Below the pieces are notes generated by a model that was not told the origin of the DNA, did no database searches, and saw nothing but the letters and a program-made list of their open reading frames with translations. The position numbers were made by a program, and so were the translations under genes. Of a stretch of DNA of 64,000 bases, positions 11,139 through 62,427 are shown piece by piece. Positions within the stretch are counted from its first letter, which is position 1. The number at the start of each line of letters is the position of its first letter. Source of the DNA: Takashimella koratensis (taxonomy: Eukaryota; Basidiomycota; Tremellomycetes; Trichosporonales; Tetragoniomycetaceae). The DNA is taken from assembly GCA_003116875.1 (NCBI GenBank), contig BCKT01000011.1, positions 1,061,771-1,125,770 of the forward strand, in the 5' to 3' direction.

Positions 11139-11910
11139 TCAGGCCGTTCGGTCGGACTGGCCAGCTGCCGTGTCCTCTACTGCGGCATGGCTACCGTCCG
11201 GATGGTCGGAAGCAGATCGTTGGCTCTAAGACAGTGTTAGCCTCATACGCTATCATGTGCTCAAGAAGGGAAGGTCTTGCTCAACCTACTTGAGGAAGAA
11301 ACACCGCAAAGGGATGGTCAACCTCAGCAAAATGTGCATTGACCGCCAACTGTTCTGTTGTAAGTCCCAAGCTGGGATCTTGGGTAGCAAAGATCATCGA
11401 AGTTATGCGAGCCTGGACTTGAGGTGTTCTGTTTATTTCAACGCAGACTGCTAGCCTCGATTGCCTTGACGTCAAGGAATGAGCCTCATCGATGGATTTG
11501 TCCGAATTGTAGACGGATCCTACGTGAAACCAAAACTTGGCCGTGTCTTCCGAGCTTTGCTCCGCCCATTTGGCTCCCGCTCTGGAGTATAACAGACGCA
11601 GGCATGTGTCAATTGGCGGTAGAGCTAAGTAGGATTCGAGATCGACTTACGCTGCCATGTCATTGGAGTCTTCACCCACGCGCTCATGAGATAACTCAGT
11701 GTATACTCTGAAAACTAAACTTACCGACTTGACAATTTCCCAAGACGGATGGCTCGAGTAAGCTAATGTGTCAGGGATACTTTCCTCCTTCCAAGGCAAG
11801 GAGAGGCAGCGATAAACCTTATTTATCACTGCAAATTTGAGACTGTTGGGGTCGTCGGCGACGCTCGGGTAGATAAAATCATTCTCGTGAAGTATCTGGC
11901 TGGAGGACAT
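11139..11910 (-). CDS. WMX family protein 1 (unknown function, intact)
   Basis: I do not recognise the protein. It belongs to the window's lineage-specific WMX family. Four exons give 189 aa: 11725-11910, 11651-11682, 11290-11554 and 11139-11225. Exon 1 (62 codons) carries SLPWKEESIPDTL and ends in phase 0 after HPSWEIVKS. The 32-base micro-exon codes for RVGEDSNDMAA and leaves phase 2. Exon 3 starts SEDTAKFWFHVGSVYN and ends HFAEVDHPFAVFLPQ. Exon 4 is a hydrophilic tail (SDHPDGSHAAVEDTA). WMX2 has the matching blocks EDLSNYWFHLGS and HFELADHHFSMPLP, which confirms exon 3. There is no signal peptide and no membrane segment. If exon 4 is not used, translation stops at 11281 two residues later (163 aa). 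Confidence 0.66.
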
Positions 11911-12457
11911 GCTGCGAAAAAACGGTTTATCTGTAGATTTATGGTAAGTTGGGGGAGTTTGTACCGCCAGGAGAGGAGATATTGCTGATGGGTGTAAATA
12001 TGTCGCTCCACAACTTAGCCTCCGAGGGTTTGAAACTCTGAAGGCCTCGGACCCTTTCGGGAGCGCCAAGAAGAAAGGGGACCGAGTACGAGTCAGCTCG
12101 CCTCTGATGCACTACCATACGAGGAGTCAAGAGGACAAGTCGGAGAGGATAAGTCAAAGGGAGACGAGTTTGCCCACCTCTTGCTCCCTACTATGCCCAA
12201 CGCCTTTGTACTCTGTACACGAAAGGAATAACCTACGCTTTGCATTTTCAAAGGCAAAGTCTCGCCTCAATGGCGTGCTCGTCCGGCCCCAGAAGTCCTC
12301 GAATGGCCACTGTGATCAACCTCCAAAGTCAATGACACTCAGGACTCAATCAAACAGCTCACGGTACGGATGAGTCACAAAAGGCAGAAATCCATGACGA
12401 GTGCCGTAGTCTTGAAGCCGTCGTTGTATCTCGAGACGATGATCTGTGAAAAGCGTC
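11911..12457. other. intergenic between WMX1 and WMX2
   Basis: 547 bases holding the WMX1 promoter and WMX2 3' flank. I see no TATA box of the strength seen at WMX8 and WMX9, and no other gene. Confidence 0.4.
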
Positions 12458-13243
12458 TTAGTCGGGAAAGATGGAGAGACTACTCGGACCGTCGTTGGTC
12501 ACATGCCTCTCCGTGTCGGCATCGCTGGTAGCAGCGCTTACAGTATCTGTCGCCCATTTCAACTAGTACTTTTATAGCCTACACATGCTCATGCTAGAGA
12601 GCGTACTTCCTGTTCCCAGACTCAGACCTACCCCTGGAAGAGGCATAGAGAAGTGATGGTCAGCGAGTTCAAAGTGACTCTCGATCGCCGACTTCGGATC
12701 GTGAATGGTCTCGCGGATCTCGCTGAAGTAGATCTGCGAGTACATCGTCTTGAGGTCTGAAGCGGGGACCTGCGCCCAAGCCCTTGCCTTGCCAAATCTG
12801 ACGAGCAGAGTCGTTCGTTTGAGCATGAGAGGATTGGCCCGCTCCTGAGATGGAGGAGGTTCTTTGCACTCTTTGAGTTCGATGAATTCAAAGAGCGATT
12901 CGATCATCTGCGTGCCCTCACTGGCCTGGTCCGTAGGTTCGAAGGCTGAACCGAGATGAAACCAGTAATTGGACAAGTCTTCCAAGCTTTCCCTGGCTTA
13001 CGACTTCCGCAAGCTGCATTGAAGATAGACCATTGTCAAGTGATCTTGGTGGTAGACGGAGTGGTGGATAGACTTACGCACCAACATACCCCGACCGCTC
13101 ACCCAAGCGCTGATCAAGGCTAGTCCGCCAAGCGAATACTTCAAGAACACCAGTGTGTCAGGAACGCCTATGTAATCAGGCGAGCGCCTGTAAAAACAAT
13201 AGCAGATCCCAATGTTGCCGAGATTTGAGACTAATGGGTTCAT
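12458..13243 (-). CDS. WMX family protein 2 (exon 2 unresolved)
   Basis: Unknown function, WMX family. Supported parts are exon 1 (13103-13243, 47 codons), exon 3 (12632-12986) and exon 4 (12458-12562). Exon 1 ends GVPDTLVFLKYSLGG then LALISAW at a GTGAGC donor in phase 0; its PDTL block matches WMX1, but the LPW block is missing, so the N-terminus may be shortened or wrong. Exon 3 begins LEDLSNYWFHLGSAFEP and ends HFELADHHFSMPLPG at a GTAGGT donor. Exon 4 is a hydrophilic 34-aa tail (TSDADTERHVTNDGPSS). Exon 3 needs a phase-2 entry, but I find no micro-exon between 12987 and 13102 that supplies it without a stop. The copy may be decaying. Confidence 0.5.
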
Positions 13244-13767
13244 CGTCCTCGCTCAGGACGAGAAAACTCGCATAATTGACTTTCCCGATGATCGGAATTA
13301 TGACTACGAACACGAAGTGTCATTCCCCTTCTTGAGATCTGTGAGTAACCTGAGAGAGAACGCACAAAATCTAGGGGAGATAACCCGTCTCTGATTTGAC
13401 CAAGCAGCTGTCAGATATGAATTGAGAAGGCATGATATCCATTCTGGGTCGTCAAGAAGGGAGAGAGAGAATCCGCGCCCACCTCAGGAGAAGTATCAGC
13501 GGTATTTGTAAAATGTATCAAAAGATTGGTCCACGATTTGCATTTCTCCAGTCAACTCCCCTCCCCAATGATGTGCTCGCCTCTTCATTCTCTGACTCGC
13601 AGAAAGAAGGCCTCCCCTCCTCCCCCCCAAACCCCTTTCCTTCCCCTTCCTTCAGATTCAGTACTTGTGCAAACGAAACGCGGTACAAAGAGCGGCAAGA
13701 GACGGTATGATGAAAAGGCCGGTCGTGGTAGGACTTGGTACTCGTCTTCTCTAATACAGAGCCGGCT
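13244..13767. other. intergenic between WMX2 and WMX3
   Basis: 524 bases with the WMX2 upstream region and the WMX3 3' flank. It includes a C-rich stretch near 13615-13650. Long open frames here have no family match and look like chance. Confidence 0.4.
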
Positions 13768-14782
13768 CTACTCGGGAGCCAGCGAGGCGTCGTCGGCTCC
13801 GGGAGTCGATTCCTTCTCGGTGGGGGCTGAGTCTGCCCCATCAAGAGTCAGTGTCGTGATTTCGGAAATCGGTTCATCGTCGCTGGGAGTCGGAGCCGCC
13901 GCTCTGGGAATTCGACCTTGTCCGACGAAAATTGTCGCATCCGCGCTGACAATCGAGCCAGCCTCCCTGGAGGGCGACTCGACCTTGCTGAGAGTCGGAG
14001 CTGCGTCGATGTCGCAAAGAGAGAGGCAGGACTGCCACTGTCAGTGCCTTGACACACAATAAAGAGGAAACCCCCCTTGGAACATTCACTCTAACCTACC
14101 TCTTTCACAGCCTTCGTGAAGGAATGCTCGCCCTTTTGCTGCCACTCAGCAATCTCAGCAATCGCTTCGTGTTCCTCGAAAATGGCTTCGGCTTCAACCG
14201 TGTTTTTGTCAGCCTCGAATATGTAACAAGGATGAATTGACATCGTCACTGGAGCGGTGTCAGGCTCGCTCTGATCTTTGGTGAACTGCACCGTGGCGGC
14301 GAGCCACACGGTGGATGCGGTGTCCCTCCCTGTGGGATCGGAGATTGTGCCGAAGGCACTATGTGAGTGTCGAAACCTTCAGGGCACATCTGTCCAAGCT
14401 TTTTCTCGGTCCTAGAGTACAGCCAGAAGGTGTGAGTGGCATGGAAAAGATCTGGTATGAATTTCAATTTGGGACTTACGCTGGGAGGTCGGTGATTCTC
14501 CTCTCCTGTCGAAGATGAAATCATGTGATCAATATTTTCTACCCCAGATTTTTTACTGAATTATATTGTACGTACCGAAGGAATTTCGTCCCACCCGCTG
14601 TAGCTCGAGCATCTCCACGCTCCGACATCTTCGGTCTTCCAAGGCACCTCAAACTTTGTCCCAATCAGACCAGTCAGCAGGTCATCGAAGCCCCCAGCCT
14701 CGTGTTCGGCGCTGGGGTAGATGCTGCGATGTTTCCAGAGTGTGGGTAAGGTCTGGTTGGATGCTTCGGTGGGAGCGGACAT
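13768..14782 (-). CDS. WMX family protein 3 (intact, acidic tail)
   Basis: Unknown function, WMX family. Four exons give 242 aa: 14576-14782, 14480-14505, 14100-14325 and 13768-14037. Exon 1 (69 codons) has GTKFEVPWKTEDVGAW and ends SGWDEIPS in phase 0. The micro-exon is 26 bases (ERRITDLPA), phase 0 to 2. Exon 3 begins DTASTVWLAATVQFTKD, matching the FWFHVGS strand of WMX1, and ends KAVKE at a GTAGGT donor. Exon 4 is a 90-codon acidic, S/P/T-rich tail (for example SDDEPISEITTLTLDGADS). Every splice site is GT-AG and the phases agree with WMX1 and WMX4. Without exon 4 the frame stops at 14091. Confidence 0.64.
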
Positions 14783-15280: not shown

Positions 15281-16138
15281 CTACTCGGTGAAGAGACTCG
15301 GGTCTCGCTCCACGAGGCCTGTTTCTGCCTCCAGAACATCCATGTCATCCAAGTCTGCCTCAGTGATGATAATGGCTTCTGCCTCGGTGGGGACTGACTT
15401 CTCCTCTTCGGGAGCATTGAGGTTGGTGGTCTGCTGAGTCCGCCTGAACTGGCACACAGTCAGCTTGTAGCTCGACAATGTGTTAAAGAAGTGGCCACAA
15501 ATATGACATCAAACGCACTTGTATGTGTGCTTCCACGAAGGGATGCTGCTGTCCCTCGCTTGTCCGCATCCAATCGCGAATTTGGATCCTTGAAGAGTCC
15601 GAGAGCAATTCGTTTGGAGCGTAAACAGGACGGATAGTCACAGTCACTTTTGGAAACTCAGGAATGCTCAGGTCTCTCGTCAAGGTGACATAAGCGAGAA
15701 GCAGTGCTCTAAGCCTCCGGCGAACTCGTTTGACGTTGTTGGTAACCGACCCAACTTGAAGGCGGTACGTTTCCGAGTCCAGTTGGGATTCCTCTGTCCA
15801 CGTCTTCTTCAGCCTGAGAACACAGTGATGAGCTGAATTCAAGACACCTAGGGGATCACCGGATGTTCCTGTTCTACTTACGCCTCAAAATCAGTCTCTC
15901 GGTCACTGAGACGCTGAGACAAGTTAACATGGCAATCGCCCCATAATTGACCTACTGAAGGGACGAGCTTCCAAGACGAATGACTTCAACATAACAACGA
16001 CTCCCCAATTTCTCTCCTTTTCCATGGCAAGCGTAACTCATGGCTCACCACACATGTGAGACTCCATTCGAGACTGTAGATTTCGTCCTCCGTACCGGGG
16101 ACGATGAGCTCAGTATTGGGTGGGATGACCTCGGACAT
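15281..16138 (-). pseudogene. WMX family copy 4, intact apart from one in-frame TGA
   Basis: Unknown function, WMX family. Four exons keep frame and splice sites: 15956-16138, 15882-15913 (32 bases, RLSDRETDFEA), 15519-15813 and 15281-15448. Exon 1 has VVSHELRLPWKRREIGES, then TGA at 15986-15988 (codon 51), then SHSSWKLVPS and a GTAGGT donor in phase 0. Exon 3 has the family block ETYRLQVGSVTNN and ends HPFVEAHIQ. Exon 4 is a strongly acidic tail (EEEKSVPTEAEA, then ITEADLDDMDVLEAE). Apart from the TGA the gene is complete at 226 codons. It is either a young pseudogene or a gene read through at the stop. The three downstream exons remain open, so the stop must be recent or tolerated. Confidence 0.6.
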
Positions 16139-16791: not shown

Positions 16792-17844
16792 TCAGTCAAT
16801 GCGAGAGATCGCTTCCTGGGACGGAACGCCAAGTTGAGCCAACCAAACGAAGAAGCCAGTCACTTGCTCCAGGATGGTGACCTTGCTCTGAATGAGAACG
16901 TTGCTTTGGAAGAATTCCGCAATCATCCTCCCGTCGTTTTCCGTGTCATTTTCCAGGGATCCTGTCAGCTATGGCGTCTGAGGACGCCTGAAGCGGTCCG
17001 AGCGGTCCCGAAGTACCTGGGATGCCGAGAGGGGACCGAGCGGGGTGGCGTAGGCCGAGGCCACGGAGAACAATAAGACCACTTGTAGGGGCGATGCAGC
17101 GCTGCGGCGCACGGGCCCGCGAGCGGCTGCGGCCGCGGAGAACAACGGGGATGCATGAACAACGCGCAAGCGGTCGAGGCCGACCTGGTGGAGTTAAATA
17201 GCAGCCTGTAGCGTCGAGAGATGAATCCCCCACCCGTTGAAACCTAACAGATCCAAACCCAAAATTGATTTCCATTCGAGGCCCGAAACGGCTTTCTTCG
17301 AGCACACTGGCTGGGCCTCTTGTAGTAACGACGTCCACCTCGACAAAGGATGATTTCGCGAGGATCCCGTAAAGACTTGGTCGGGAAGGGTCGGTGATTC
17401 TCGTGACGAAAATTGTGCCAAGGAGCCAGGTTCTTTCACCTTGTTCAGAATCCTCCTCTTGGGCTAAGCCAAGGCCGGTGATCCTTGCACGATGATGATT
17501 AGCAAACATTTTTCTCTAACTCTGTCACTTCTTACCTTTTCCAGGCATCTGCTTTGGAGCCGCAACGCTGGGGATGATTATCAGGTTGATACCCTCAAAG
17601 AGTTTTCTAAGCGACTTACTGAGGCAACGGCTTCCCAGCAGGTATCTGGCTTGAATGTGACTGTGATTCCGTCCTTAGTAACAGTCTTTTCGATCCAAGG
17701 AAGACGGAGAGAGAGACTCATCAAGTCGGCCACAGCGGCGATTCTGTGGTCTCGGGTTTTTAATGGGTGCGTCAATACGCCACCCATCACTCTCACACCT
17801 CGAACGTTGTGAGTGCTTGAGGATGTGGAGGCATCCTCGGACAT
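16792..17844 (-). pseudogene. WMX family copy 5, split by mobile element copy A
   Basis: Unknown function, WMX family. Exon 1 is 17620-17844 (75 codons; LSLRLPWIEKTVTKDGITV, ending CWEAVAS, phase 0). The micro-exon is 17536-17567 (32 bases, RCGSKADAWK). Exon 3 starts at 17432 after an AAAG acceptor with TWLLGTIFVTRITD. It is interrupted at 17248 by a 284-bp element. With the element and one 8-base flank removed, exon 3 continues in frame for 52 codons (LENDTENDGRMIAEFF onward) to TGA at 16792-16794, about 201 aa in all. As it stands the frame runs through the whole element and then shifts, giving a stop at 16946. The locus is therefore probably dead, or makes a chimeric protein. Confidence 0.55.
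16965..17248. mobile_element. non-autonomous DNA element, copy A (284 bp)
   Basis: This copy matches a second one at 43004-43227 in the same orientation. Shared blocks include the left end TCAG-x-TAT...CG...GAGGAC, an inner block reading CCGAGCGGGGTGGCG, and a right end reading TAGCAG...GCGTCGAG-x-GATG, then GAAACCTAAC. The flanks GGATCCTG and AGATCCAA share GATCC in register, as in a worn 8-bp target duplication. The ends form only a weak inverted repeat (about 7 of 10: TCAGGTATCA-like against TTAGGTTTCT-like). It encodes no transposase and is clearly GC-richer than its surroundings. An 8-bp duplication points to a hAT-type source; this is inference. Confidence 0.68.
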
Positions 17845-18514: not shown

Positions 18515-19266
18515 TCAGTTCGGCTGAGACATTGACTCGCGATCAGGCAGTGTGCAATTCAAAGATGAGGTTCCGGTGGTTCGGCCCTGTATGAAGCTCT
18601 GCATCGAAGTGAAGAGAGGATTCCCCGAATCCATCGGCGGGGTGATCGTGAGGGTGAGGGACAGGTCGCGGCTTGAGATTACCACTTCCTGGGCGCTTGC
18701 AGAGCGAATGTCCGGGGAGAGAACCCTTCCCGGAGCGCTCGATTCGGTGTAAACCAGCCTCGCTATCACTGTGAACAACGGCCGATGCGACTCTTCGGCT
18801 TCGGCCCCAGAAGTCGGGAAGAAAGCTTCAATCAACCAGAAGGATTCGTCAGGGGGGCGAGTGGAAATGCCCGATTCGAACAAATCAAACACTCTGATGA
18901 ACTCAGCAAGATTCTGCACGGTGGCCAGCAGCAACAATCAAAATGGACAACTTACCCTTGGCCGCGCTCGTCTCGTTGTCAACATCCTAGATCAGGAAGT
19001 CAGTTAGACGTTTGACCGGTGGACCTTACGACAGTGAGACTCTGCCATTCCGGATGGAGATTGAAGACAAGGCTTGGCACCGCGTCTTCCTTCCAGGGAG
19101 TTTTGAGTTTGAGCTTGAACGCGAGGCTCATGTAGCTCGCCACCGTTTGTTGCCACGCAAGAGGAAACTGGGGTGGGACGTGTACCTCAGATATTTTTGA
19201 GGTGACGAGCTCTGGATACTTCCGAATCAGGCTGGAGATGTTCCCAACGACTTTCTTCAGACTCAT
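18515..19266 (-). CDS. WMX family protein 6
   Basis: Unknown function, WMX family. Proposed exons are 19030-19266, 18956-18986 and 18515-18891, giving 214 aa. Exon 1 (79 codons) has SLAFKLKLKTPWKEDAVPS and ends FNLHPEWQSLTVV in phase 0. The micro-exon is 31 bases (DVDNETSAAK), so exon 3 must begin in phase 1; the CAGAG acceptor at 18892 gives that. Exon 3 contains PDESFWLIEAFFPT, the counterpart of the FWFHVGS strand, then SHRPLFTVIARLVYTE. The micro-exon length differs from the usual 32, so either the acceptor of exon 3 moved or a one-base indel occurred. The start is the second ATG of the frame (19266); the upstream frame crosses a G tract and is poly-proline. Confidence 0.52.
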
Positions 19267-20035: not shown

Positions 20036-20703
20036 TCAAGCAAAGATCCTTAAAAAACACATCTGAAACCTCATCTGATGGAAATGTAGAGCTTTCGGGA
20101 AAGGCCCAACATTTCCGGGATATCGGGACATGTATCGCTTCCTCGCCTGGAGCGTCACCTGTCGCAGGATAGTGAGGCGCTCTTCCATCTTTCGTAGAGA
20201 TTCGTTCCACTTGCAGCCTCGCACCCACGAGGCAAGACGCAGCTGCTGATTTTGAGACATCCCTGGAAACTTCCGTCAGCTTATTCCGATGTACATCGTT
20301 CGGACCCAGGTCTTCTCTTTAGAATTGTCCATGTGATTTGAAAAGGTCCACTAGCCTTGAACATGGCGTCAGATACGCTGCAAAGCGTGTCAGACATCTC
20401 ACTCGCCAACGAGCGTCATCGACGAGGTTCCGTTGTCGCTGCACTTTGTTAGTCGCCATGCAATACTCCACATGCGAGTATTACCCTTTGCTTCTGATAC
20501 TCACGTCGTAAACCAGCTCCCAGTCTGCGTGTGGAGTGAATACAAGCCCGCACACATCGACTTGTTTTCATGGAAGGTGCAGAACGTGACTGACTTCGAG
20601 GGTGATGGCGTCCATCCAGTCGTTGTTGTCCTTGGAGGGAACGACGACAGGATCTGAGGTCTTTGGAGCTCGAGGTAATGATGGAAAGTGCTGGACGGGG
20701 ACC
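20036..20703 (-). pseudogene. WMX family copy 7, decayed
   Basis: Clear relics of a WMX gene. Exon 1 reads VVVPSKDNNDWMDAI, EVSHVLHLP, stop (TGA), KQVDVCGLVFTPHADWELVYD and then a GTGAGT donor. The TGA sits exactly where other copies have the Trp of LPW, so a TGG to TGA change is the simplest explanation. The ATG at 20710 is in a different frame, so the start is lost too. A micro-exon relic (RQRNLVDDARWR) follows a GCAG acceptor near 20443. An exon 3 relic has KTWVRTMYIGIS followed by another TGA. With two stops and a lost start this copy is not functional. Confidence 0.6.
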
Positions 20704-22323
20704 GCTAGCCATTTCTTATAGTGGCTGAGGCGGTTGGAATTACAATAGATAGCAGTGGTGGGTGCCGAGGTGCAAGAGGTAAAGTGGAGAACTCACAATG
20801 AGACACGCCCTTGAAAGCATAATGAGGAAAGCTTGGGGTGGGGGAGAGAACCTGCTCAAAGGGTTCAGTCGGTCAAAGAAGAGAGGACGATTATCTGATA
20901 CCATGCCTAGACTTTGGTGAAAACGAGTGGTGACACTCGTTCATGGCTCAGGAGGTAAGCTGTCATCGCCGTACAAATGTCAAGTCATGACAATGCATTT
21001 CAACCAAAGAACGCTTGTAGACCCTGCCTGGAAGCGGCACGGAGATTTCACATTCTCTCTCCTTTTGAGAAAACAGAAGACATCACACCGCGATTGACGA
21101 CCGTTGATATCGTCAAACGGAAACTATTACCAATCCCCTGGTCTCTGCAAAGGCTCTTAAGGTCTAGGCACGTCGGTGAACTCACTGCGCTGTATCCAAT
21201 GACCGTGAACGGGGGATCATGCATCCTTAAGTACTGGTTCACTGCTTCCATGTCAGGTTTGGAAATGTTTCCTGCGTAGATAAAACCCTATGAAATGTCT
21301 ACTGTGGCTACGTCCTCATTCGATCCCTCCGCCGGTTCTCTGAAACTTAACACCGGGAATTATCTGAGCTGATTGAAGCTTGTTGGCTGCATCTGCCGAG
21401 CTTAGGAGGACGAACATGTTCACCGAGTCGTCATCGAATCCCGAGTTCCCATGCAAGAGATGGTATTTCAGTCTGAAAGCATCGGTGACGGGGCAGAAAC
21501 AAAGCCCATCCTCTCAACCCACTCGTCGGGATCCTTCTCCTTCTCTGTCTTGTGCCGTGTGAGCTTGTAGTCCCTCGTCGCAGTTCAGTTGAACCTACAG
21601 GAGTACTGAGTTCTCATCGCTGATTGTTGGAGATTGTCATGTCATTTGGCAATGTTGTCGGTGTCCATGGCTAGCTGGACTCATGGCTGACGATTCGTGT
21701 CAAGAGATCTGTGAAGCTATCAGGCTCGTCAAACTCGCTAGAAAGAATCAAGTTGAAGTCGTATAGCTCCCACTGCAGTTGACAGCCCTTGCACATGTCG
21801 TCGAGATGTTGGAGGAGCTCACGTAAGTAAAGTCAGGACAAATTCGATAGCTATCGAGATATCTGTAGCGGTTTATACCGCTGGCGCCATACCGGGCGTC
21901 CTTCAGGTATTTGAGTAAGGATGCCAGTGGGGATAAATAAGCTGTCTCTCCATTCTCGCCGCACATCGAGTCACAGTATTGGTCATGAAAGCAACTATCG
22001 GTGAAAATGGTGTCAATGGAGGAGATGAAAGGACGCCAACGATTTGGGTATCGCTAGATGCCGCTGGATCTGCAGTGAATGCATGAACTGGTAGATACTT
22101 ACCGTCCCTTTCAACATGGTACATCTTTTCTGCTTTGCCTCTTTTCTTTCTTACCCTGACATAGACAGTACGAAACGTGGGCATCAGATGCTCCACCGAA
22201 TGTGACTAACGGATCCAAGGAGAGGGATGGAGCGCCGGCATCGACCGAGAGGGAACCCAAAAAAAAAAAACGGCTGGAAATAGCTGCGCACATATGTCTT
22301 GTCACCGTTGATCTATTTCTCAG
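20704..22323. other. degenerate region between WMX7 and WMX8
   Basis: 1.6 kb with no complete gene. A minus-strand frame at 21903-22184 (TFRTVYVRVRKKRGKAEKMY) faintly resembles the exon 3 strand RTTLLVRFGKAR of WMX2 and may be a relic. A12 lies at about 22258-22269. I see no LPW exon here. Confidence 0.35.
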
Positions 22324-23102
22324 CTACTGAAAAGGGGTTTCAATGGCGTCGGAATAAGCAGTCGTTGAGGCCCCTCCTCTGTTGTCAATCATGGAACGCA
22401 AGTATTGACCTGGAGAAAAGTGACCGCCGGAGGAAATCCAAGTCCAATGCTTCTTCTTCGTTGCCTCAGTGTTTTTCGCTAGCTGTTCTTGGATGTAGGT
22501 TTCAACCGCATTGGAGGCAGGCGTTATCGTGTTTTCTCCTACAATGTGCGTGGATACTTTGACATGTAGTTTCGAAATTTCCCGCAAGTTGGTCTTTGTT
22601 GCGTGGCTGAAATTTTTATCAAACTCAACTTTGCACACAATTGAGTATCTCAAAGGTTCGGAACCGTGGAGCGAGGTCTGTGTGAGCGTCCCAACGCGGT
22701 AATAGTAGGTAAGAAAAGTGCTTGACTCTCCCTTGCAGCGCTTCAAGAAAATGCTCATGAGTCTGCACAGGAAGTCAGCTTCACCGAAAATGCATAACAT
22801 CTAGAAATGTTTAGCAACGTACTTGTCATGGTCACTGTTTGGGCTGTTGCGACGCTACTTGTCCCTTTGGGTGAGCGAGAAACATCTTTATGCACGAAAC
22901 GGTTTTCACTCACTTCGACAACACCTTTCCAACCATCTTCAACATCAAAAGTGAAGTTGGACGAAGCGACCGGGCTCCATGGGAGATGCAAATCATGGCT
23001 AATGAAGGAGGTGATAGCCGTAGAGAATGGCTCGTCGTTCTTCGTTGGAATGAGAAGACTGTTGAGACTTGAAATTGCGGATCTTTGCGACCTGTGAAAC
23101 AT
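22324..23102 (-). CDS. WMX family protein 8 (intact reference copy)
   Basis: Unknown function; one of the cleanest WMX genes. Three exons give 218 aa: 22914-23102 (63 codons), 22836-22864 (29 bases) and 22324-22762. Exon 1 has TSFISHDLHLPWSPVASSN, then FTFDVEDGWKGVVE and a GTGAGT donor in phase 0. The micro-exon codes GQVASQQPK and leaves phase 2; exon 3 resumes with LMSIFLKRCKGESS. Exon 3 carries TFLTYYYRVGTLTQTSLHG, matching the VGS strand of WMX1 and WMX4, and then VCKVEFDKNF. The tail is basic, KKKHWTWISS, and there is no acidic exon 4. A TATA box lies 82-87 bases upstream of the start. Confidence 0.7.
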
Positions 23103-23183
23103 TCTGAGGTGGGGGATGGAGGGGACGATGATTGGATATACAGCAATAATGAGCACGAAAAGAAAGTGAGTAGACTCTGAGCT

Positions 23184-23765: not shown

Positions 23766-24294
23766 TCAAGTAATGCAGAGACTGAACATTGAACATTGAA
23801 CATTGTAGCTTTCATCACTCTCACTCGAAAGCACCCTACCTGCTTCCTTGGGGACCTTGATAAATTGAATGCTGGCGAACAACGGCAACCAGAAATCCTC
23901 AGAGGAAGGCTTGGTCAGATCCCCCAGGCTGAACGCTATTGTGGGAGGTTCACCGGTTAGGAATACGCGATCCTTGAATACTGTCCTGAATCTGATGGAC
24001 AGGTCAGAGATAAGAGGAGGTTAAACAAGGAAAAATACCGTACTGGTTCAGGTCATTGGCTGCTGTATCACGTCTCTGCGTACGTGGTCAATGTCCTTCT
24101 ACAAGTGCCGAACCTACCGAATAAACAGCGTCCCATTGTTTATCCGGAGTGAAAGTCAAGCCTTGTGACACTTTTTCCCACGGCAAATTGAGCTTATGGC
24201 TGATAACCCGGGTTGCAAAGTCGATCCAAAATGAGACATCCTTGCTGGGAATCAGAGTTATAGAAAACTGATCAGACTTTGGTGCTTCAGACAT
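23766..24294 (-). CDS. WMX family protein 9 (intact)
   Basis: Unknown function, WMX family. Three exons give 144 aa: 24118-24294 (59 codons), 24044-24075 (32 bases) and 23766-23991. Exon 1 has IPSKDVSFWIDFATRVISHK then LNLPWEKVSQGLTFTPDKQ and ends WDAVYS in phase 0. The micro-exon codes RRDTAANDLN. Exon 3 has QFRTVFKDRVFLTGEP and SSEDFWLPLFASIQF, the VGS-strand region. A GTAGGG donor near the end could instead lead to a fourth exon stopping at 23669 (DSSRESTMDEVRRFF), which would resemble the tails of WMX1 and WMX3. I cannot decide between the two ends. TATAAA lies 86-91 bases upstream. Confidence 0.68.
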
Positions 24295-40383: not shown

Positions 40384-41363
40384 TCAGGTTGGATGACTAA
40401 ACTCGAATGTCGATGAGCCGGAGGGGCCGCCCGCCTGACCGCTCTTGGGTAGGCCCAGTTGTCGCACAGCCGTGTCAAACCTGGCAAGATAATGCCTCGG
40501 GATGGATTCCCTCGCCCGTTCGAGAAGGAAGGAACAGTCGGTTTCGTCACGATGGTCGTCATCAGAAGTTATCTCAAAATGTTTGATTGAGTACAATTCG
40601 AAACTTCGCTGACTCGTCGCAGGAGTGGGACTTGGATTCGTGGGACTGGTCGGGCGTTCGCGACGAAGGAAAGAGTGTAACAACGGAATCTCACCGGCGT
40701 CGATCCATGCGAAGACCTCTGCATTGAGGGTGCATGGGGCGGAGAGCTCACAGTCGGTATTGTCCGCTAAGACCGATTCGACGTTCCCTTTGATGCGAAG
40801 GTTGTCCATGTAGATGGAAGCCACAGCGACTCCGGTGTCTCTCAAGATGGATCCTACGAAACTCCGCTTGAAAGAAGCAATTGGCTGTACTTCGCCCTGT
40901 CTCAACCACGATTGCCGGTTCTCCCAGCTCCACCGGTCTTCGCTTCCCACCCCCCTGGTTCGAATAGAACGTATGTGATCGGTGTTAGTACTGAACACGC
41001 TCCGCAGCCTTCATTCCCGTCAAAATGGCATTTCGACAAAACGGTGTCAGCACATCACCTGTACCTTGGATGGGGGAAGCTCACATGATGTAGGTATCGG
41101 AAGCATCACAACCGCAGCCCTTGATCACCCGAATCAGCTATTTCCTGCTCGAAGCAATGTTGATCGATACTCACAAAGTCCCATTTCGGAGCGGGTACGA
41201 ATGACAAGTGAGGACCCAACGCGGTGAAGTCGACTTCTTGTTGGAACAACTTGTAAGCGAATTTGGCAAAGAGTGGCTCAGCTTTCTCTACCCAAGTCTT
41301 CACTTCGGAATGCATCCCGCCGAACTGTTCTTGATCTTCGGGGTATTCAAGAGTGAGAGGCAT
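40384..41363 (-). CDS. WMX family protein 10 (second island, intact)
   Basis: Unknown function. Three exons give 264 aa: 41175-41363 (63 codons), 41085-41119 (35 bases) and 40384-40954. Exon 1 reads MPLTLEYPEDQEQFGG and ends LSFVPAPKWDF at a GTGAGT donor, phase 0. The micro-exon codes GCGCDASDTYI, phase 0 to 2. Exon 3 has EDRWSWENRQSWLRQGE, FVGSILRDTGVAVASIYMD and a C-terminal block TDCSFLLERARESIPRHYL. WMX11 matches at all these blocks, so this is the best model of the second-island subtype. It has no signal peptide or membrane segment. It shares with the first island the phase pattern, the Trp before the first intron and a VG(S/T) strand, but not much residue identity. Confidence 0.72.
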
Positions 41364-42140: not shown

Positions 42141-42995
42141 CTAGCTCGAAGACGGCAGGATGGCACGACGACGTGGTATGCTTCGGGCATTCGTTAGAGC
42201 GATAAAAGTCCCCAAGTACGACTCAGGTATAGAGTTCTTCGTCAATTCGAACACGGAGGTGCAATCGGTCAAATAAGGGTCCACCACCTCTTCCTCCTCA
42301 GTCTCTATCGTTGGCTCATTATCTGCGCCTTGTCGACTTGCGCCTCCAGTTCGAAGATTTTCCCTCAGTACCGTCGGCGCTTGAGGGATAGAGGCTAGGT
42401 GAGCCCCTATTGCCGCGCGCTCATCAGAGTTTATCAGCGCTGTTGGTTTCACTCTGGGTCTCGCTGTCACACCGAAGTGGGTGTCTCGCCTATCCACCAT
42501 TATCGAGTCCAGGTTCGCCCGGAAACGCATAAAGTCTACGTGGACTGAAGCCACAACCGTACCGTCCTCGCGGCACAGCGTACCGACTAGATTGGAGCCC
42601 AACGAGGCAAATCGCTCGGTTATGCCTTGCAGCTCCCACAACGCCTTGTTCGTCCAGCTCCACTCGCTACTTTTGATAGCTTTCATGGTCCTGGCAGCAC
42701 GCGTCTCATCGCAATTTGCCATGAATGAGAACTGCAGTCTTTCTCCCACCGAGAGGAAAATATGGGCACCGGAAATGGGGGACGTGAAGAGAACGAAGAG
42801 TTAGCTTATGGCCTTTGCAACACCGTACAATACGCACAGGTCAAGAGCATCGATCACAGTGCAATCGCAGGTCTTTAGGGAATCAGTTTCAGCTTGCATT
42901 GAACCCGGGCATGCAGGCACTCACGAAGTTCCAATTTGGCTCTGGAACAAACGACAGATTGGGACTGACAGCCTCAAAGTTGTATCGGCTTTGTA

Positions 42996-43003
42996 ACGTC
43001 TTG
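42996..43003. repeat. target-site duplication, left copy (ACGTCTTG)
   Basis: The 8-base sequence ACGTCTTG directly precedes element copy B and recurs without mismatch directly after it at 43228-43235. Confidence 0.85.
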
Positions 43004-43227
43004 TCAGGTATCACGGCCGAGGACTGCGGAGGCGATCTGTGCGGTACCGAAGTACCTCGAGTGACGAGAGCGATCCGAGCGGGGTGGCGCAGATCCAACG
43101 CCACCAGGGGTAGCATGGGACTGTGGCACGGCTAGGGGGAGCTGCGGAGAGAGTAACAGAGGGATATATATAGCAGTCCGTAGAGCGTCGAGCGATGGAT
43201 CCCCCAGATCGAGTGAAGAAACCTAAC
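43004..43227. mobile_element. non-autonomous DNA element, copy B (224 bp)
   Basis: Flanked by a perfect 8-bp duplication (42996-43003 and 43228-43235). It starts TCAGGTATCACGG and ends GAAGAAACCTAAC. It shares both ends and an inner block with copy A (16965-17248), but is about 60 bases shorter in the middle. It has no open frame of note. The terminal inverted repeat is short and imperfect. The 8-bp duplication, small size and lack of a poly-A tail argue for a hAT-type MITE rather than a SINE; the autonomous partner is not in the window. Confidence 0.78.
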
Positions 43228-43235
43228 ACGTCTTG
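43228..43235. repeat. target-site duplication, right copy (ACGTCTTG)
   Basis: Second copy of the 8-bp duplication flanking element copy B. It lies inside WMX11 exon 1 (codons for FKT). Confidence 0.85.
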
Positions 43236-43333
43236 AACGCGACTTTGAAGAAGAGTCTCTCTCCTTCTTTGACCCACTTTTCCACTTCGGGATACAGCTC
43301 ACCTTCTTCGGGATAGTCGATGGTAGGAGACAT

Positions 43334-44359: not shown

Positions 44360-45263
44360 CTACCTATGCAAACTGCCCAAGAGGAAAAAAGGCGAAGTCA
44401 AAGCGGAGATCCTAGATTGAATCTGGCTGCAATCGTTTTCCCGAGGAGCTGGGCCTTGAGGGTCTTCTAAGGAGGGGAGCCTCATAACCAAGTCGTGAGC
44501 GGTGTCAACAGACGTTCCGCCTGGGGTTTCAGTCAGTTCAAGCTTGGATTCGCCCATCAAACCTACCCAGTGAAGCAACGAAAGCCGAAATAGCGTCGTG
44601 GTCCTCCGGCAAAATATTTTCGGAATACTCGATCAATGACATGGCGTTGTATAGGACGCGACCAACACCCATCTCTGACAGGTCATCATTGCTTATCTTG
44701 AGCTTGAGGGGACCTCGAAAGTACAGAGCCCCCAGGACATGTGTAGCCGTGCCCACCGATTTGGTGAATCCCCCGTAAAGCTCGATCGTTGGCGATTCTC
44801 GAGATGCGGCTGGATCAAGGGAAGTAGACTGTCCTGACGTAGTGGTGTTATCCTGCTCGTCCAGCAAACTTTCCATGAAACCACCGGCGATCGAGTTGCA
44901 GATCAGCGTACCGAGCCTGCGAACAGAATGTGTCAGAGGGATAAGGCATGATCAAATAGGTCAATCTCACTGGGTAGCAACTTCATCCGTGGTACAAGCG
45001 CAGTTCTTTTCTCATCCACACTTCAGTGTCAACGTAATGTCTCTGCCTCCACAAAGCACAAAAACGTTGCGTTTTATCTAACTCACAAAGCGCCATGTGG
45101 GAGCCACCAAAAATCGAATGTCATCAGGCAAAGTGGTTCCCTCGGAAGCCGAGCTCAAATTTTTGGAAAACAATTTCCTTATGAATGGTGAGTCCGCGCC
45201 AATCGAACTTTCGATACGCTCAATGGTCAACGGGTTGGGTTCGTATTTGACGACAACGGACAT
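44360..45263 (-). CDS. WMX family protein 12
   Basis: Unknown function, second-island WMX type. Proposed exons are 45087-45263 (59 codons), 44996-45042 (47 bases), 44567-44916 and 44360-44520, giving 244 aa. Exon 1 ends IRFLVAPTWRF at a GTGAGT donor, phase 0, the same as WMX10. The second exon (RHYVDTEVWMRKELR) is longer than the usual micro-exon but has the usual phase 0 to 2. Exon 3 has TKSVGTATHVLGALYFRG and DAISAFVASLG, matching the VGS strand and AIGAHLASI of WMX11. Exon 4 (GTSVDTAHDLVMRLPS) is hydrophilic. If exon 4 is not used the frame stops at 44538. The micro-exon choice is the weakest point. Confidence 0.54.
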
Positions 45264-46219: not shown

Positions 46220-46966
46220 GTTCGGCGATATTGGGGTAGAGATGTAGTGAAACGTGAGAAAGGCAGGAAAAGCGGGGCTTGTTTTCGTGTCATGGAGATT
46301 GTTCTCCAAATACAAAGAGAGAGAGGTCGCCCGGTAAAGACAGTCGAAACAAGAGGATGGCAGGAACAAGAGGCGTTACTACAAACGGATGGCAAGCCAG
46401 AAACAGAAGGGATCGATCCCAACAGCCCCGCTTGAGCCGTCAACCGAAAACACCGGCAGCAGTGACAAAATTCTCACTTTGCCCATTTGGCGGTGTGTGC
46501 GTGTTCCCTCTATCCTCATGGTACGGACTATCTTTCCCGGATCCCCCAAGGTGCTTCTCGCTGACTGATTGGATGCACCTCTACACCATGTTCAGCTGTT
46601 CAACGGGCTCGATCATAGTGATCGAGGATGTCAGCAAGCCAACCGCGTTGCTCAAGAGAGCCATCCGAAAAAATCTATATCGCCGAAAGAGATCTGTATC
46701 TAGTAACATTGGCGCGGACGTGGAAGTAGTTGGCTCAAGGTTCTACTGTATTTTTCTCAAACGATTACAACCTGCTAAACATTGATGAGGGTAATGTGCA
46801 AGATCAAATCATTTGCATAAAAGACTGACCAAGGTATGAACCACAAGGCAGTTGTAAACTGAAAAGTAAGATCCCCGCGTAATGGATTGCAAGCAAATTG
46901 GTGATCGGCCTCCTCCCCTCAATCATTCCGGGCCTTCGTCAATGGCTAAACTTAGGAATTGGTAAG
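46220..46966. other. intergenic upstream of the WMX13 relic
   Basis: 747 bases in which I see no supported gene or repeat. The frame on the plus strand here has no family features. Confidence 0.4.
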
Positions 46967-47842
46967 CTAACAGAACAGCAGCGAACAGGCAAATTGGGAC
47001 GTACGCGGGTTGAGACTGACAGCGGAAAGCTGCGTTTCCTCCGACTGCTGTGTGGTTTGGCAGAATACATGGTTGATATGGTGGCCCCATGTCATACGAC
47101 AATGATCAGCGTAGACGCGAAGAAGCGAAGCATTCTCTGAAAGCGCCGCCCTGCCAGCCGGAGCCGTGGAAGCTGTCGCCTCAGGATCTGGAGTGGTGGG
47201 AGCGAATGCCCTCACGACAAAGGATAGACCGCGGGTCCAGGCGGCCCAAGAGTGTTCTTCAGTTGCCGTCGTCGGCAAAGCCATGGTCGGGAAAGGCATT
47301 GGCTGCGTTGAGACTGTGGGGGTCGTGCGCCGCGCGGCACTCGACATGTGCAGGGAGACGTTGGAAGCGTGCATCTCAATTGTAGGATCGACAACAAAAA
47401 AGGTGGAGAGCTTCTTGCCATTTTTCTCGACGGTCCCGATCTCCACCCCGCCGGACAGCAAATCGGGTTGTGATTCGGCCTCCTCGAGACCCCTTCAGTC
47501 AAGAATGGCTTTGAGGTTCGCTTTGACTGCTCGGAGAGCAATCCTGAGTTGATGTCAGCGCTCTTTTATGTAGATATACTAACTTGGTCATGAGAGTGCC
47601 GCAATCGTCGGACGACGCCTGAAAAGGGTCAGAGGGGGTGACAGGCTGTTTCCGCTCTCGGCTTCACTTACGGTCCAGTCTGATGCGGGCTCAAACTCGA
47701 ATCCGGCGTTCTTGAAACAATGAGTAGCCCTGGCAAGGAAGCACTGGCTGAGGAGCTCTTGCTCGTTCGCGGTCATGTCGGAATCTGCAGCAGGGCTGCG
47801 GTCGCCGTCGATTATGAGTCTGAATTTCACCGAAGGGCGCAT
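46967..47842 (-). pseudogene. WMX family copy 14, one in-frame TGA in exon 3
   Basis: Unknown function, second-island WMX type. Exons are 47672-47842 (57 codons, ending GFEFEPASDWT, phase 0), 47584-47618 (35 bases, ASSDDCGTLMT) and 46967-47543. Exon 3 begins IALRAVKANLKAILD, then TGA at 47495-47497, and stays open in the same frame for about 175 codons: LLSGGVEIGTVEKNGKKLST, then DPTIEMHASNVSL and an Ala/Thr/Pro-rich tail. WMX15 has the matching blocks LSVIGYIHTGGKTVSELL and DPSIEMTATR, so the part after the TGA is real family sequence. The copy is either a fresh pseudogene or is translated through the stop. The second donor is GTTAGT. Confidence 0.6.
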
Positions 47843-49051: not shown

Positions 49052-49752
49052 TCAGAATAAAGCATCAAGACTTTGCACGTCTTCAGGAAGCGCTTCTGAG
49101 TTGTGGCGGTAACCAAAGTCGAAATTCCAGTTGGTGTGGAGGTCAAACACATCGCCAGAAAACACCCCCAAGTCTCCCTCCATGTAACCTTCTTCTTCTG
49201 CCTCCGTCATCCCGCCGCGAGCATCCTGGCGCGTGGCCGTCATTTCAATGGAGGGATCTCGGATGAGAAGCTCAGAAACTGTCTTCCCCCCCGTGTGGAT
49301 GTACCCAATCACCGATAACCTGTGCTCATTGAAAAAGCTCTGCAAGTCTGGTCCAACAGTTGCTTCCCCATCCCCTTGCCCCGAGCCAGATGTCTCAATA
49401 AGGCCAGTCACTATCTTCTCAATCCTACAGAGAGTTAATTCATGCCTTTCCTCAAGAATCTCACTCCTTGAACAGGCAACCGATGTCCGCAGTGTCGGGA
49501 GGTGCTGATTCTGACTAAACAACGTTAGCGCAAGGCTGTTAGATACATCTTTGTCGATTTGCTTACTATCCAATCATCGGAAGCAAGGAATTCGTACCCA
49601 ATGGCAGAAAACATGTGGGACAGTCTCTTGAGAACGATTCTTTTGAGAAGACTTTGATGCTTTTGGGTGACTGCATTCTCCACAAAGGGGAGCTCTGTTT
49701 CGCCGGAAGAAGTTAATGCAAACCGGATAGGAGGATGTCTTTTCGAGGACAT
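49052..49752 (-). CDS. WMX family protein 15 (intact)
   Basis: Unknown function, sister of WMX14. Three exons give 202 aa: 49567-49752 (62 codons, ending GYEFLASDDWI at a GTAAGC donor, phase 0), 49465-49514 (50 bases, ending TADIGCLFK, phase 0 to 2) and 49052-49424. Exon 3 begins with IEKIVTGLIETSGSGQGD and carries RLSVIGYIHTGGKTVSELL and RDPSIEMTATRQDARGG, aligned with WMX14. The end is acidic and aromatic (NWNFDFGYRHNSE). The second exon aligns with the WMX14 micro-exon at D-x-G-x-L-x-K but is 15 bases longer. No signal peptide or membrane segment is seen. Confidence 0.66.
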
Positions 49753-57247: not shown

Positions 57248-58312
57248 TTATGGCAGCTTTAAAAGCTCTTCAAAACTTAGCTCCCCAATTTCTAACCTAT
57301 CTTTCCCTAGCTCCTCGAGTATGTCGATCTCAGTCGGGTCTATGTGCTGTGCTGTGCATTGTGAACGATCCGCAGCAGAACCGATTGCCGGAGCTTCCTT
57401 CATATGTTCGTCCTCTTCGACCGTTGCAGTCAGCTGTGAACATTTGTCCGTACAATCGATTCCCGGTTCCCACACGCGTTCGTCCAACAAGGCAGAGGGA
57501 GGTTGATCGACTTCGGATATGTACGATTCAGGTTCATCGAGCAGGAGATCGATCCAACGCACAGTTGTACCGTCGTTCACAATCCGCACGTACCCCTCGC
57601 TCTTGATCGTGGTCTTATCGTCACGGGATTCAAGGTAAATGCTTCCGTAAAAGTTTGGTTCGACCATGAGCTGACACTCGACCCTCCTCAAGCTCTGCTC
57701 CCCCTTGACAGTGACGAAGATCGCAGCGCGGGTGTAGTATGGAAGTAGAGAGTGAGATGTGGTGCTGTCTTCGCCGTCTATAAACCCTTCGCATTGCGTC
57801 GTGCAGTTGTAAATTTCATATTGGTGGGAAGAATTCGCCGCCGAAAATATTAGTTGCGCGCAGATCTTGCCGTCCGCGTTTTTCGGTTCGTACGATACCC
57901 ATGCAATTCCCGCTAAACGGTCCAAAGGTAGGTCGTATCCTTGAACCCGGTAGTCACCTATTGGAACGGTACGTTTTTGGCCGTCCAAAAATCCAACCCA
58001 CGCTCGGCTGAAATAGTCGACTTTGAAATCGTCGAGCTCCTCCCCCCACCAGTGTTTGCAACCACTTTCCAAAGTGGTTTTGTGATAGTGGTAACCAGTA
58101 CCCCCGTGGTACAATGACCGGCTCTCGATTCGGCTTTGGCTCTGTCGAAGCGAGAGGGATTGTGTAGGTTTCCACGAGTATTTACCCATGGCCCTTACTT
58201 CCGTCGAGTCGAAGTCGAGGGTGAACGAGAGGTATTTCTTGTGTGTGCTATAAAAGCTGTCACTTCCACTCGCCGCCGCTCGCTCTTGTAGAGCAATGGA
58301 TGGTTTCAACAT
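57248..58312 (-). CDS. intronless unknown protein Q1
   Basis: One open frame of 354 aa, without introns in an otherwise intron-rich region. I do not recognise it. It is a paralog of Q2: matching blocks are KYLSFTLDFDSTE and LQLVLNFNANAE, DLPLDRLAGIAWVSYEP and DMDRLVGVAWRPGP, and VEPNFYGSIYLES with IESSFYGNFDFTP. The body looks beta-rich with many aromatics; a C-terminal acidic tail (EILEELGKDRLEIGELSFEE) follows. There is no signal peptide or membrane span. PRM1 converges on it with only about 170 bases between the stops. The function is unknown; a MATH- or jelly-roll-like fold is possible but not shown. Confidence 0.72.
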   Translation of the reverse strand: MLKPSIALQERAAASGSDSFYSTHKKYLSFTLDFDSTEVRAMGKYSWKPTQSLSLRQSQSRIESRSLYHGGTGYHYHKTTLESGCKHWWGEELDDFKVDYFSRAWVGFLDGQKRTVPIGDYRVQGYDLPLDRLAGIAWVSYEPKNADGKICAQLIFSAANSSHQYEIYNCTTQCEGFIDGEDSTTSHSLLPYYTRAAIFVTVKGEQSLRRVECQLMVEPNFYGSIYLESRDDKTTIKSEGYVRIVNDGTTVRWIDLLLDEPESYISEVDQPPSALLDERVWEPGIDCTDKCSQLTATVEEDEHMKEAPAIGSAADRSQCTAQHIDPTEIDILEELGKDRLEIGELSFEELLKLP

Positions 58313-59703: not shown

Positions 59704-59706
59704 GAG

Positions 59707-60642
59707 CTATTTCGACATGATAGACGAGGTAGGGGGATCGTCTTCGGTCAGGTCGATGATCTCGGGGCTGTCGATGATCTCGGGGCTGTCGATGATCTCG
59801 GGGTCGTCGAAGGCAAGCGGCAGAGTAGACTTCGGGATAAATTTTTTCCCTACTTCGCGCATAAGAAATTCAAAGCGCGCTCCAGTATCCTCCGCTTTCG
59901 CGAGTCGCCCGAAACCTTCAGATGTGACGAGGAAATCGGGTGTGTCGGGAGTGAAATCGAAATTGCCGTAGAAGCTGGACTCGATGAGCAAGTCGGACTC
60001 GATCGTGAGACAATTCATGCCATTGACGCAGATCGTCAACGAAGCCCTCGAAGTGGAGAAAGGAAGCGAGTGAGGCGGGAGAGAAGTGGAATGCTTCAGG
60101 ACCCCGGTGGTGGACTCCACAGAGAAGGTTAAGATTTCGTGAGGCGGGTCCGTCTCCCTATGCAAGAAGATGAGATGTGAAATGATTTCGGTTTCGCCGT
60201 CTGTGGCGTCACCGCTCCTTGGCCCGGGCCTCCATGCAACTCCAACGAGTCGATCCATATCAAAAGTGAAATCTGGCGTAACTTTGGGATCGATAGTGAG
60301 CCCACGCGTGCCCGAAAAAAAGGCCACGCTTGATCTTCCAACACTGCCCTTCCAGGTGAAAGTTTCAGCTGCCGCTGTCGGGTGACCTATGGGAAAGCTG
60401 TAGATGCCCAGTCGCCCAAATTTTCCGCAGATAATCCTGCCCTCGTCGAGACGTTCTTGGTACAGGGCGGTATCGACAGTCGCATAGTCTATAGGGTCCC
60501 ACACCATACTTCCTCCGGCGGTTTCAGCGTTGGCGTTGAAGTTGAGAACGAGTTGCAGAGTACCAGGTCGCTTTTCGTATACTTGTTTTTCTTCGGTCCA
60601 TTTCGAAATTGCCTCAACAGAGTTCGGGACGTTTGACGACAT
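59707..60642 (-). CDS. intronless unknown protein Q2, with SIM-like repeat tail
   Basis: One open frame of 311 aa, a paralog of Q1. The body is beta-rich (WTEEKQVYEKRPGTLQLVLN; FTFDMDRLVGVAWRPGP; LIESSFYGNFDFTP; SEGFGRLAKAEDTG). The C-terminus has three tandem copies of PEIID, the last reading PEIIDLTEDD, which fits a hydrophobic SUMO-interacting motif with an acidic flank (residues about 293-302). The frame stops at TAG (59707-59709), yet the same frame stays open for 131 more codons, so the full-length protein may be about 444 aa. Nothing in the sequence names a reaction. A nuclear SUMO-linked role is inference from the motif alone. Confidence 0.7.
   Translation of the reverse strand: MSSNVPNSVEAISKWTEEKQVYEKRPGTLQLVLNFNANAETAGGSMVWDPIDYATVDTALYQERLDEGRIICGKFGRLGIYSFPIGHPTAAAETFTWKGSVGRSSVAFFSGTRGLTIDPKVTPDFTFDMDRLVGVAWRPGPRSGDATDGETEIISHLIFLHRETDPPHEILTFSVESTTGVLKHSTSLPPHSLPFSTSRASLTICVNGMNCLTIESDLLIESSFYGNFDFTPDTPDFLVTSEGFGRLAKAEDTGARFEFLMREVGKKFIPKSTLPLAFDDPEIIDSPEIIDSPEIIDLTEDDPPTSSIMSK
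59752..59805. repeat. 18-bp tandem repeat, three units, in Q2
   Basis: Units at 59752-59769, 59770-59787 and 59788-59805 read GTCGATGATCTCGGGGCT on the plus strand, the last with two changes. They code the repeated SPEIID block of Q2. Confidence 0.92.
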
Positions 60643-61259: not shown

Positions 61260-61554
61260 ATGGTTATCGCTGAAGATACGGATTCAAAGTCAAGTGACCC
61301 AAGCCCCATCTCAACGACCTTGACTTCAATCTCCGTTGAACTCCTTTATACGGGAAAAAGGCTTCCAGACGTGGAAAAGAGGATGCGCCTGAGCTGTCAG
61401 CCGCTAATCGAGACGTACATAGCGCAGTCCACTAGAAGCCGCATCCAAAGTAAGGCTCTGGATGACGTGGAAGGAATAACTTTTACTTTGGAGCCCTCTT
61501 GGCAAGCTATCGTGAGTAAGATTAGCTGAAGTGCGCGGGGGGAAAGGGGGAGAG

Positions 61555-61614
<60 letters not shown>

Positions 61615-61714
61615 NNNNNNNNNNNNNNNNNNNNNNNNNNNNNNNNNNNNNNNNNNNNNNNNNNNNNNNNNNNNNNNNNNNNNNNNNNNNNNNNNNNNNN
61701 NNNNNNNNNNNNNN

Positions 61715-61768
<54 letters not shown>

Positions 61769-62427
61769 CGCCAAGATCTGACCAAACGGATGTAGTTTGA
61801 CTCCGACTCACGCAGCGAAGGACAAGTTGGACACTCGTCAGTACGCTTTGGAAACGGATTACTGACAAACTCAGTGTTTATAATATTGCAAGTGCCCTTA
61901 CGCAACAGGAGCTCAATTCAGAAGACTGGAAAAGCCCATGGTCAAGTCGCACACAGACTCAGAGCGTTTCATACCCAATCGATAACGACAGGACACCCGA
62001 CCTAATCAATGACCACACGAATCGGAGCCTGATAGGACGATTTCACCGAACTAACCAAACCGAACCCCAAGAGTTCTACCAACTCTATTGTACTCCACAC
62101 TATGTCAGAATATCCATTAATGAGCCACAGTCCTCGGTGGTTTCCGGATTTGAGCTCAATTATCGTTGGTCGTTCAAGATGTCACAATTGGAACGGGATT
62201 CGGTGAAGAAAGTCTATCCTCCTGCTAGTGAGTATATTGTGTCCTGGCTCAGAAGGGATTACTGAAAGATATCCTCAGTTTTGCCAGAAAACAGCGAGAG
62301 CGACGACCCAGAGTTTGTCCAAGAGGACAACGGGTCATCAAGAAACGAAAGGTCGCAAACAGATTCGTCTGTCCTTGGCTTTTTCCAAAGACTGATCAGT
62401 CTCTTCTCTGGAAACGAAATTGCATGA
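61260..62427 (+). CDS. WMX family protein 16 (plus strand, intact)
   Basis: Unknown function, WMX family, the only plus-strand copy. Four exons give 264 aa: 61260-61511 (84 codons), 61796-61836 (41 bases), 61875-62227 and 62279-62427. Exon 1 ends VEGITFTLEPSWQAI at a GTGAGT donor, phase 0; compare GLTFTPDKQWDAV in WMX9. The second exon (FDSDSRSEGQVGH) takes phase 0 to 2. Exon 3 (VYNIASALTQQELNSEDW) has PHYVRISINEPQSSVVSGF. Exon 4 is acidic, then amphipathic (ESDDPEFVQEDNGSS, LGFFQRLISLFSGNEIA). Intron 1 contains a GA repeat and an assembly gap, so its length is unknown. Finding the same architecture on the other strand 12 kb from the nearest copy supports the family call. Confidence 0.62.
61558..61766. 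repeat. GA microsatellite with a 100-N assembly gap
   Basis: GA dinucleotides run from about 61558 to 61614 and from 61715 to 61766, with 100 N (61615-61714) between them. The gap is probably more GA repeat that the assembler could not size. It lies in intron 1 of WMX16. Confidence 0.95.

Follow-up and report, generated by a model that had tools for sequence, protein, structure and literature searches.

A divergent and apparently undescribed tandem gene family with open and broken copies in Takashimella koratensis

The stretch analysed here, referred to as the window, comprises 64,000 nucleotides of the basidiomycete Takashimella koratensis (contig BCKT01000011.1, termed C11, positions 1061771-1125770, the genome spanning 25.1 Mb on 24 contigs) and contains 16 recognised copies of a small gene, hereafter family A, 15 of them in two tandem clusters and one, J9, apart. 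The first island (G1 to G10, 11.3-24.3 kb) and the second island (J1, J2, J3, J5 and J6, 40.4-49.8 kb) lie entirely on the minus strand, and J9 (61.3-62.4 kb) resides on the plus strand, opposite to all other copies. The copies were found by inspecting all three frames of the minus strand, followed by exon assembly. A first-pass annotation of this sequence had counted about 15 copies in two islands, and the peptides it quoted were found where it had placed them. Family A is very probably a real gene family, undescribed by all appearances, which undergoes birth-and-death turnover.

With respect to the end of exon 1, all 12 readable copies have a tryptophan that precedes a phase-0 GT donor by 1-5 residues, and 10 of the 12 have a phenylalanine six positions before this tryptophan, G1 having a tyrosine and G3 a cysteine instead. 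The last tryptophan lies exactly five residues before the donor in G1, G3, G5, G6, G9 and G10, and one to three residues before it in J1, J2, J3, J5, J6 and J9. Written as F-x5-W-x(1-5)-GTRAGB, with 20 open codons required upstream, the pattern has nine matches in the window, all nine of which are members (G5, G6, G9, J1, J2, J3, J5, J6 and J9), as against a single match in eight other loci that together make up 75,000 bases. Of the 12 ends, G1, G3 and G10 do not match the pattern, which, having been written after viewing the copies, is partly circular. The LPW motif, which had initially been described together with the tryptophan as a common mark of the exon-1 ends, is confined to the first island, and it is the tryptophan before the first intron that is found in both.

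As judged from splice signals, a second exon of 26-35 nucleotides, always of length 3n+2, can be placed with GT-AG borders in nine copies (G3, G4, G5, G9, G10, J1, J2, J3 and J5), where it would restore the frame between exon 1, which ends in phase 0, and exon 3, which starts in phase 2. The second exon is out of frame in G6 (31 nucleotides) and J6 (34 nucleotides), and none was found in J9. By eye, exon 3 of many copies encodes a hydrophobic strand ending in G-S/T, plus further strands. For five copies (G9, G10, J1, J3 and J5), the models run without interruption from the start to the stop codon, their GT-AG introns measuring 42-130 nucleotides. Based on codon usage, a criterion that makes no use of the F-x5-W motif and for which six conserved or long open frames served as the training set, the modelled frame is the best one in 20 of 26 exon pieces, as compared to 17 of the 171 other stretches in the islands that stay open for 57 or more codons. 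In addition, a TATA-like box is located within 100 nucleotides upstream of 5 of 13 starts (G9, G10, J2, J5 and J9; G7 and the excluded open frame J4 being left out of the count), in contrast to 4.4% of random 120-nucleotide stretches.

In the first island, G9 (22324..23102) and G10 (23766..24294) have open three-exon models, coding for 219 residues (exons 23102-22914, 22854-22823 of 32 nucleotides, and 22762-22324) and 144 residues (exons 24294-24118, 24075-24044 of 32 nucleotides, and 23991-23766), respectively. Within exon 3 of G10, at about 23780-23810 on the minus strand, a 7-bp unit occurs three times directly before the stop, so that a change in the number of units would alter the frame. 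G3 (14091..14782; exons 14782-14576, 14505-14480 of 26 nucleotides, and 14411-14091) carries a frameshift in exon 3. G4 (15483..16138) has one in-frame TGA in exon 1 (16138-15956), followed by exon 2 (15913-15882, 32 nucleotides) and an exon 3 starting from 15813 (TYRLQVGSVTN), and in G5 (17250..17844; exons 17844-17620, 17567-17536 of 32 nucleotides, and 17483-17250) exon 3 is cut by a putative long terminal repeat (LTR) at 17249-16963. Three copies are represented by single pieces: G2 (12572..12985) by an exon-3 piece (YWFHLGSAFE), no exon 1 being recognised upstream by eye or with exon-1 profiles; G7 (20505..20640) by an exon-1 remnant with a TGA at the tryptophan of LPW; and G8 (21674..21754) by an exon-1 remnant that was recognised by eye, with an in-frame TAG before PW and no further exon recognised. 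G1 (11281..11910), with exon 1 at 11910-11725 (LPWKEESIP...SWEIVKS) and exon 3 at 11581-11281 (FWFHVGSVYN), is doubtful because no in-frame AG acceptor was found for intron 1, and G6 (18515..19266; exons 19266-19030, 18986-18956 and 18893-18515) is doubtful as well.

In the second island, open three-exon models were obtained for J1 (40384..41363; exons 41363-41175, 41119-41085 of 35 nucleotides, and 40954-40384; 264 residues), J3 (44538..45263; exons 45263-45087, 45010-44982 of 29 nucleotides, and 44916-44538; 194 residues) and J5 (46967..47842; exons 47842-47672, 47618-47584 of 35 nucleotides, and 47492-46967; 243 residues), J5 being open only with the inner acceptor, as the acceptor before 47543 leads to a stop. 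J2 (42141..43333) has an exon 1 (43333-42925) with an LTR inside, an exon 2 at 42872-42838 (35 nucleotides) and an exon 3 extending to 42141, and the doubtful copy J6 (49052..49752) has exon 1 at 49752-49567, its second exon at 49514-49481 and exon 3 from about 49424. The open frame J4 (46.2-46.0 kb) was excluded from family A because it lacks the motif; this small frame within the second island (45970-46220, minus strand) may be a remnant. For J9 (61260..62427, plus strand), exon 1 at 61260-61511 (GITFTLEPSWQAI), an exon 3 spanning roughly 61843-62227 and a short last exon are proposed, the model being tentative as a whole because exon 2 was not found. Within intron 1 of J9, a long GA repeat at about 61555-61766 includes an assembly gap, seen as a run of N.

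As far as similarity can be detected from sequence, the relatives of family A copies are their neighbours in the array. In particular, J1 matches J2 with E = 1.3e-15, J5 matches J6 with E = 3.2e-5 (0.0013 in reverse), and G10 matches G7 with E = 1.6e-6, weaker matches being those of G10 to G9 (0.067) and of G9 to G7 (0.31). Identity between paralogues ranges from 12 to 30%, and identity to J1 in seven other aligned spliced models from 12 to 22%, which bears out the very low identity outside the motifs that had been reported at first. In whole-genome searches with eight queries (J1, G9, G10, J5, J9, G5, J3 and J6, with J5 represented by exons 1-2 and a stretch following the upstream acceptor), all matches lay within the window; such searches detect fairly close relatives only, distant copies elsewhere being possible, and G1, G2, G3, G4, G6, G7, G8 and J2 were not among the queries.

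Likewise, no convincing match to family A was found in Pfam (best E = 0.12), NCBIfam (0.22) or the PDB (0.41), consistent with the earlier failure to assign any described domain. For Pfam, the queries were six open reading frames representing single exon pieces (together with J7 and J8, see below) and then eight spliced models, for NCBIfam and PHROGs the same eight models, and for the PDB sequence search J1 and an eight-sequence profile. A match of one member to an unnamed phrog (E = 0.0028) was taken as chance. In IMG/VR, no viral relative was confirmed for J7 or for exon 3 of J1, and the window has no match in Rfam at gathering thresholds. Among the paper titles listed in literature searches, no mention of a gene family of this sort was found, although it may still be published.

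It is likely that the two islands constitute one family, a view based on the end of exon 1 and on the architecture of the genes, but not on exon 3. A profile built from seven exon-1 sequences of the first island and searched against 3428 stop-to-stop frames from the window and seven other loci had as its best untrained matches G4 (E = 2.6e-4), J9 (0.0052), J2 (0.27) and the tail of G4 (0.36), and none of 60 column-permuted versions of this profile, ranked with the trained copies left in the list, had a second-island copy or J9 among its top four. Direct comparison of the profiles of the exon-1 ends, with J9 included in the second-island profile, gave P = 1.5e-4 over 15 columns (51% probability). 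The alternative, namely two unrelated small families, one in each island, that resemble each other in exon 1 by chance, is unlikely; it would account for the restriction of LPW to the first island, for the lack of a match between the exon-3 profiles and for the failure of the second-island profile to recover the first island, but it leaves unexplained the F-x5-W spacing and phase-0 donor common to both islands, the recovery of J9 and J2 by the first-island profile, and the 3n+2 design of the second exon shared by the nine modelled copies.

Nevertheless, several observations weigh against the explanation that is preferred overall (see below) and have to be set beside these results. The second-island profile without J9 misses the first island (best rank 5, with 3 of 60 permuted controls doing better), and for exon 3 no significant match between the profiles of the islands was seen, in a comparison for which three rows were joined across a frame change. 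The rows of J2 and G7 in the exon-1 profiles were likewise joined or marked across a lesion. Since the splice sites were chosen by hand and a second exon was sought, finding one counts only in part as independent evidence. In the genome searches, G5, J3 and J9 match only themselves. Finally, 6 of the 26 exon pieces score better in another frame, and the codon bias of the exons is weaker than that of the training frames, which also fits decay. The strands that had been quoted from third exons as a shared feature are present, but all four come from the first island (G1, G2, G4 and G9). The unity claimed for the two islands is supported by the end of exon 1 and by the common architecture; exon 3 and the reverse search lend it no support. 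A structure prediction by AlphaFold2 for exon 3 of J2 and J1, i.e., for second-island sequences only, was uninformative, with a predicted local distance difference test (pLDDT) score of 33.5.

In total, seven of the 16 copies have clear lesions, namely the lack of a recognisable exon 1 in G2, the frameshift in G3, in-frame stops in G4 (TGA), G7 (TGA at LPW) and G8 (TAG), and LTR insertions in G5 and J2; three are doubtful (G1, G6 and J6), J9 is tentative and five are open. The repeat in exon 3 of G5 (16963..17249, minus strand) is 287 bp long, has TG...CA ends and is flanked by a 5-bp target duplication (GGATC), and an older copy with TG...CA ends and the target duplication AGACG lies in exon 1 of J2 (43002..43228, minus strand). 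In view of these ends and of the 5-bp flanking duplications, the repeat is read as a solo LTR. Among nine other repeat copies whose flanks were read, 5-bp duplications flank three, the other six being unclear. The copy in G5 shares 95-96% identity with the four siblings that match it best, and the copy in J2 matches that in G5 in two pieces, one of 91 columns at 77% and one of 40 columns at 82.5% identity, which points to two insertions of different age. In the genome, the repeat has at least 41 matches on 18 of the 24 contigs, with 40 of 87 candidates scored. C11 itself ends 66 kb past the window inside another copy of the 287-bp repeat, and no telomere repeats were found in its last 5 kb, so that a subtelomeric position is not established.

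The presence of broken copies among open ones, together with the kinship of neighbours, supports the birth-and-death turnover that the first-pass annotation had proposed. A different explanation of the same data is that of a dying family, in which once-useful tandem genes are under relaxed constraint and divergence reflects lost selection and not an arms race. This is a real, if minority, possibility: seven copies are clearly damaged and another three show problems with frame or splicing, two copies have received an LTR, one old and one young, codon bias in the exons is weak, and the eight genome queries revealed no copies elsewhere. On the other hand, five of the 16 copies, and perhaps J9, are still open under GT-AG models, 20 of 26 pieces still score highest, among six frames, in their own, and the F-x5-W motif and the position of the donor have been retained.

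Between the second island and J9, i.e., between J6 and J9, two members of another gene family, family B, are located on the minus strand, J7 (57248-58312) and J8 (59707-60642), both consisting of a single exon and related to each other (E = 2.7e-8, 26% identity). J7 matches two places on contig C9 (E of about 1e-3), and one C9 member in turn matches five more on C9 (E = 8.5e-36 to 1.1e-5), which makes an array of at least six copies at about 898.2-909.9 kb; two further open frames in this array look, by eye only, like more diverged members. When the frames of the window and of seven loci were searched with a profile of eight family B sequences, no additional member reached significance. With a core of LPL..L..I.W and nothing found in Pfam or the PDB, family B also has the appearance of an undescribed, divergent tandem family, differing from family A in its single exon, and a structure prediction for J8 and J7 was uninformative (pLDDT 29.9). 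Kinship of the two families, considered in view of matches of exon-3 frames of J3 and G3 to the family B profile (E = 2.3 and 2.5), was not upheld by profile comparison (P = 0.84, no match). At the C-terminus of J8 (about 59730-59800, minus strand), a threefold EIID repeat ends in IIDLTED, which bears a possible resemblance to a SUMO-interacting motif. With respect to other genes, the window codes for an aspartyl protease (E = 1e-27) and a proteasome subunit (E = 9e-6) according to Pfam, contains a stretch of a class II tRNA synthetase that falls under the Pfam cut-off, and has short GT-AG introns, all of which fits a eukaryotic genome.

In the six family A models inspected for hydropathy, neither an N-terminal hydrophobic segment (best 12-mer within the first 40 residues at most 1.2) nor a membrane helix (best 19-mer at most 1.08) was found, which by this measure alone would place the proteins in the cytosol or nucleus, and cysteines are few (1-7 per protein). 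The turnover may then be pictured as follows: local duplication would give rise to new copies, which would diverge until little beyond a hydrophobic pattern remains, and copies would be lost through nonsense changes, frameshifts and LTR insertion. Each working copy might, and this is weakly held, be a cytosolic or nuclear binding protein that keeps its fold while its surface changes. If such proteins recognised varying partners, be it in self/non-self discrimination or in defence against mobile elements and viruses, loss and replacement of copies would be expected. Recognition of changing partners is, with little confidence, considered to fit the turnover best, plain decay fitting about equally well. 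As read from sequence, a recognition role of family A is conceivable but rather doubtful, and the involvement in self/non-self recognition or conflict that had been offered earlier as a candidate is likewise only weakly held. The explanation as a whole, i.e., a tandem family with birth-and-death turnover and a recognition role, is preferred tentatively, its chances being judged somewhat below even. Its most far-reaching version, in which family A would be a cytosolic recognition repertoire with an F-x5-W core and hypervariable surfaces whose turnover is driven by conflict with non-self partners, viruses or mobile elements, family B being a second such repertoire, is improbable.

Two further roles were weighed. 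Effectors directed at a host or competitor and leaving the cell by an unconventional route are quite improbable: the proteins are small, highly diverged, encoded in tandem and devoid of known domains like many fungal effectors, but by hydropathy the six models inspected lack a hydrophobic N-terminus, and cysteines are few. It is highly improbable that family A represents selfish killer or drive genes of a tandem type, since, despite a tandem array with many broken copies that recalls the wtf arrays, membrane helices are absent, by hydropathy, from the six models inspected and nothing specific to drivers was found. Should expression and polymorphism be found for the open copies of family A, these would make up a set of candidate genes, overlooked by domain searches, for recognition of non-self or of mobile elements in fungi. 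If they are merely decaying, the family would illustrate that tandem genes can lose nearly all sequence similarity and yet keep their exon design.

Amongst known systems, smut and rust fungi have clusters of small, diverged secreted effectors, which family A resembles in the clustering of small diverged proteins and from which it differs by the lack of a signal peptide in six models as judged by hydropathy. The wtf drive genes of fission yeast are multi-exon genes in tandem with many pseudogenes and code for proteins with several membrane helices; the multi-exon structure, the tandem order and the broken copies are common to both, in contrast to the membrane helices, which the six family A models inspected do not have. 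Family A very probably belongs to a known kind of genome feature, the birth-and-death tandem multigene families. It differs from other fungal arrays of this kind in that its protein has no convincing match in Pfam, NCBIfam or the PDB, and it shares with them the tandem order, neighbours as the detectable relatives, the mixture of open and broken copies, and the insertion of LTRs.

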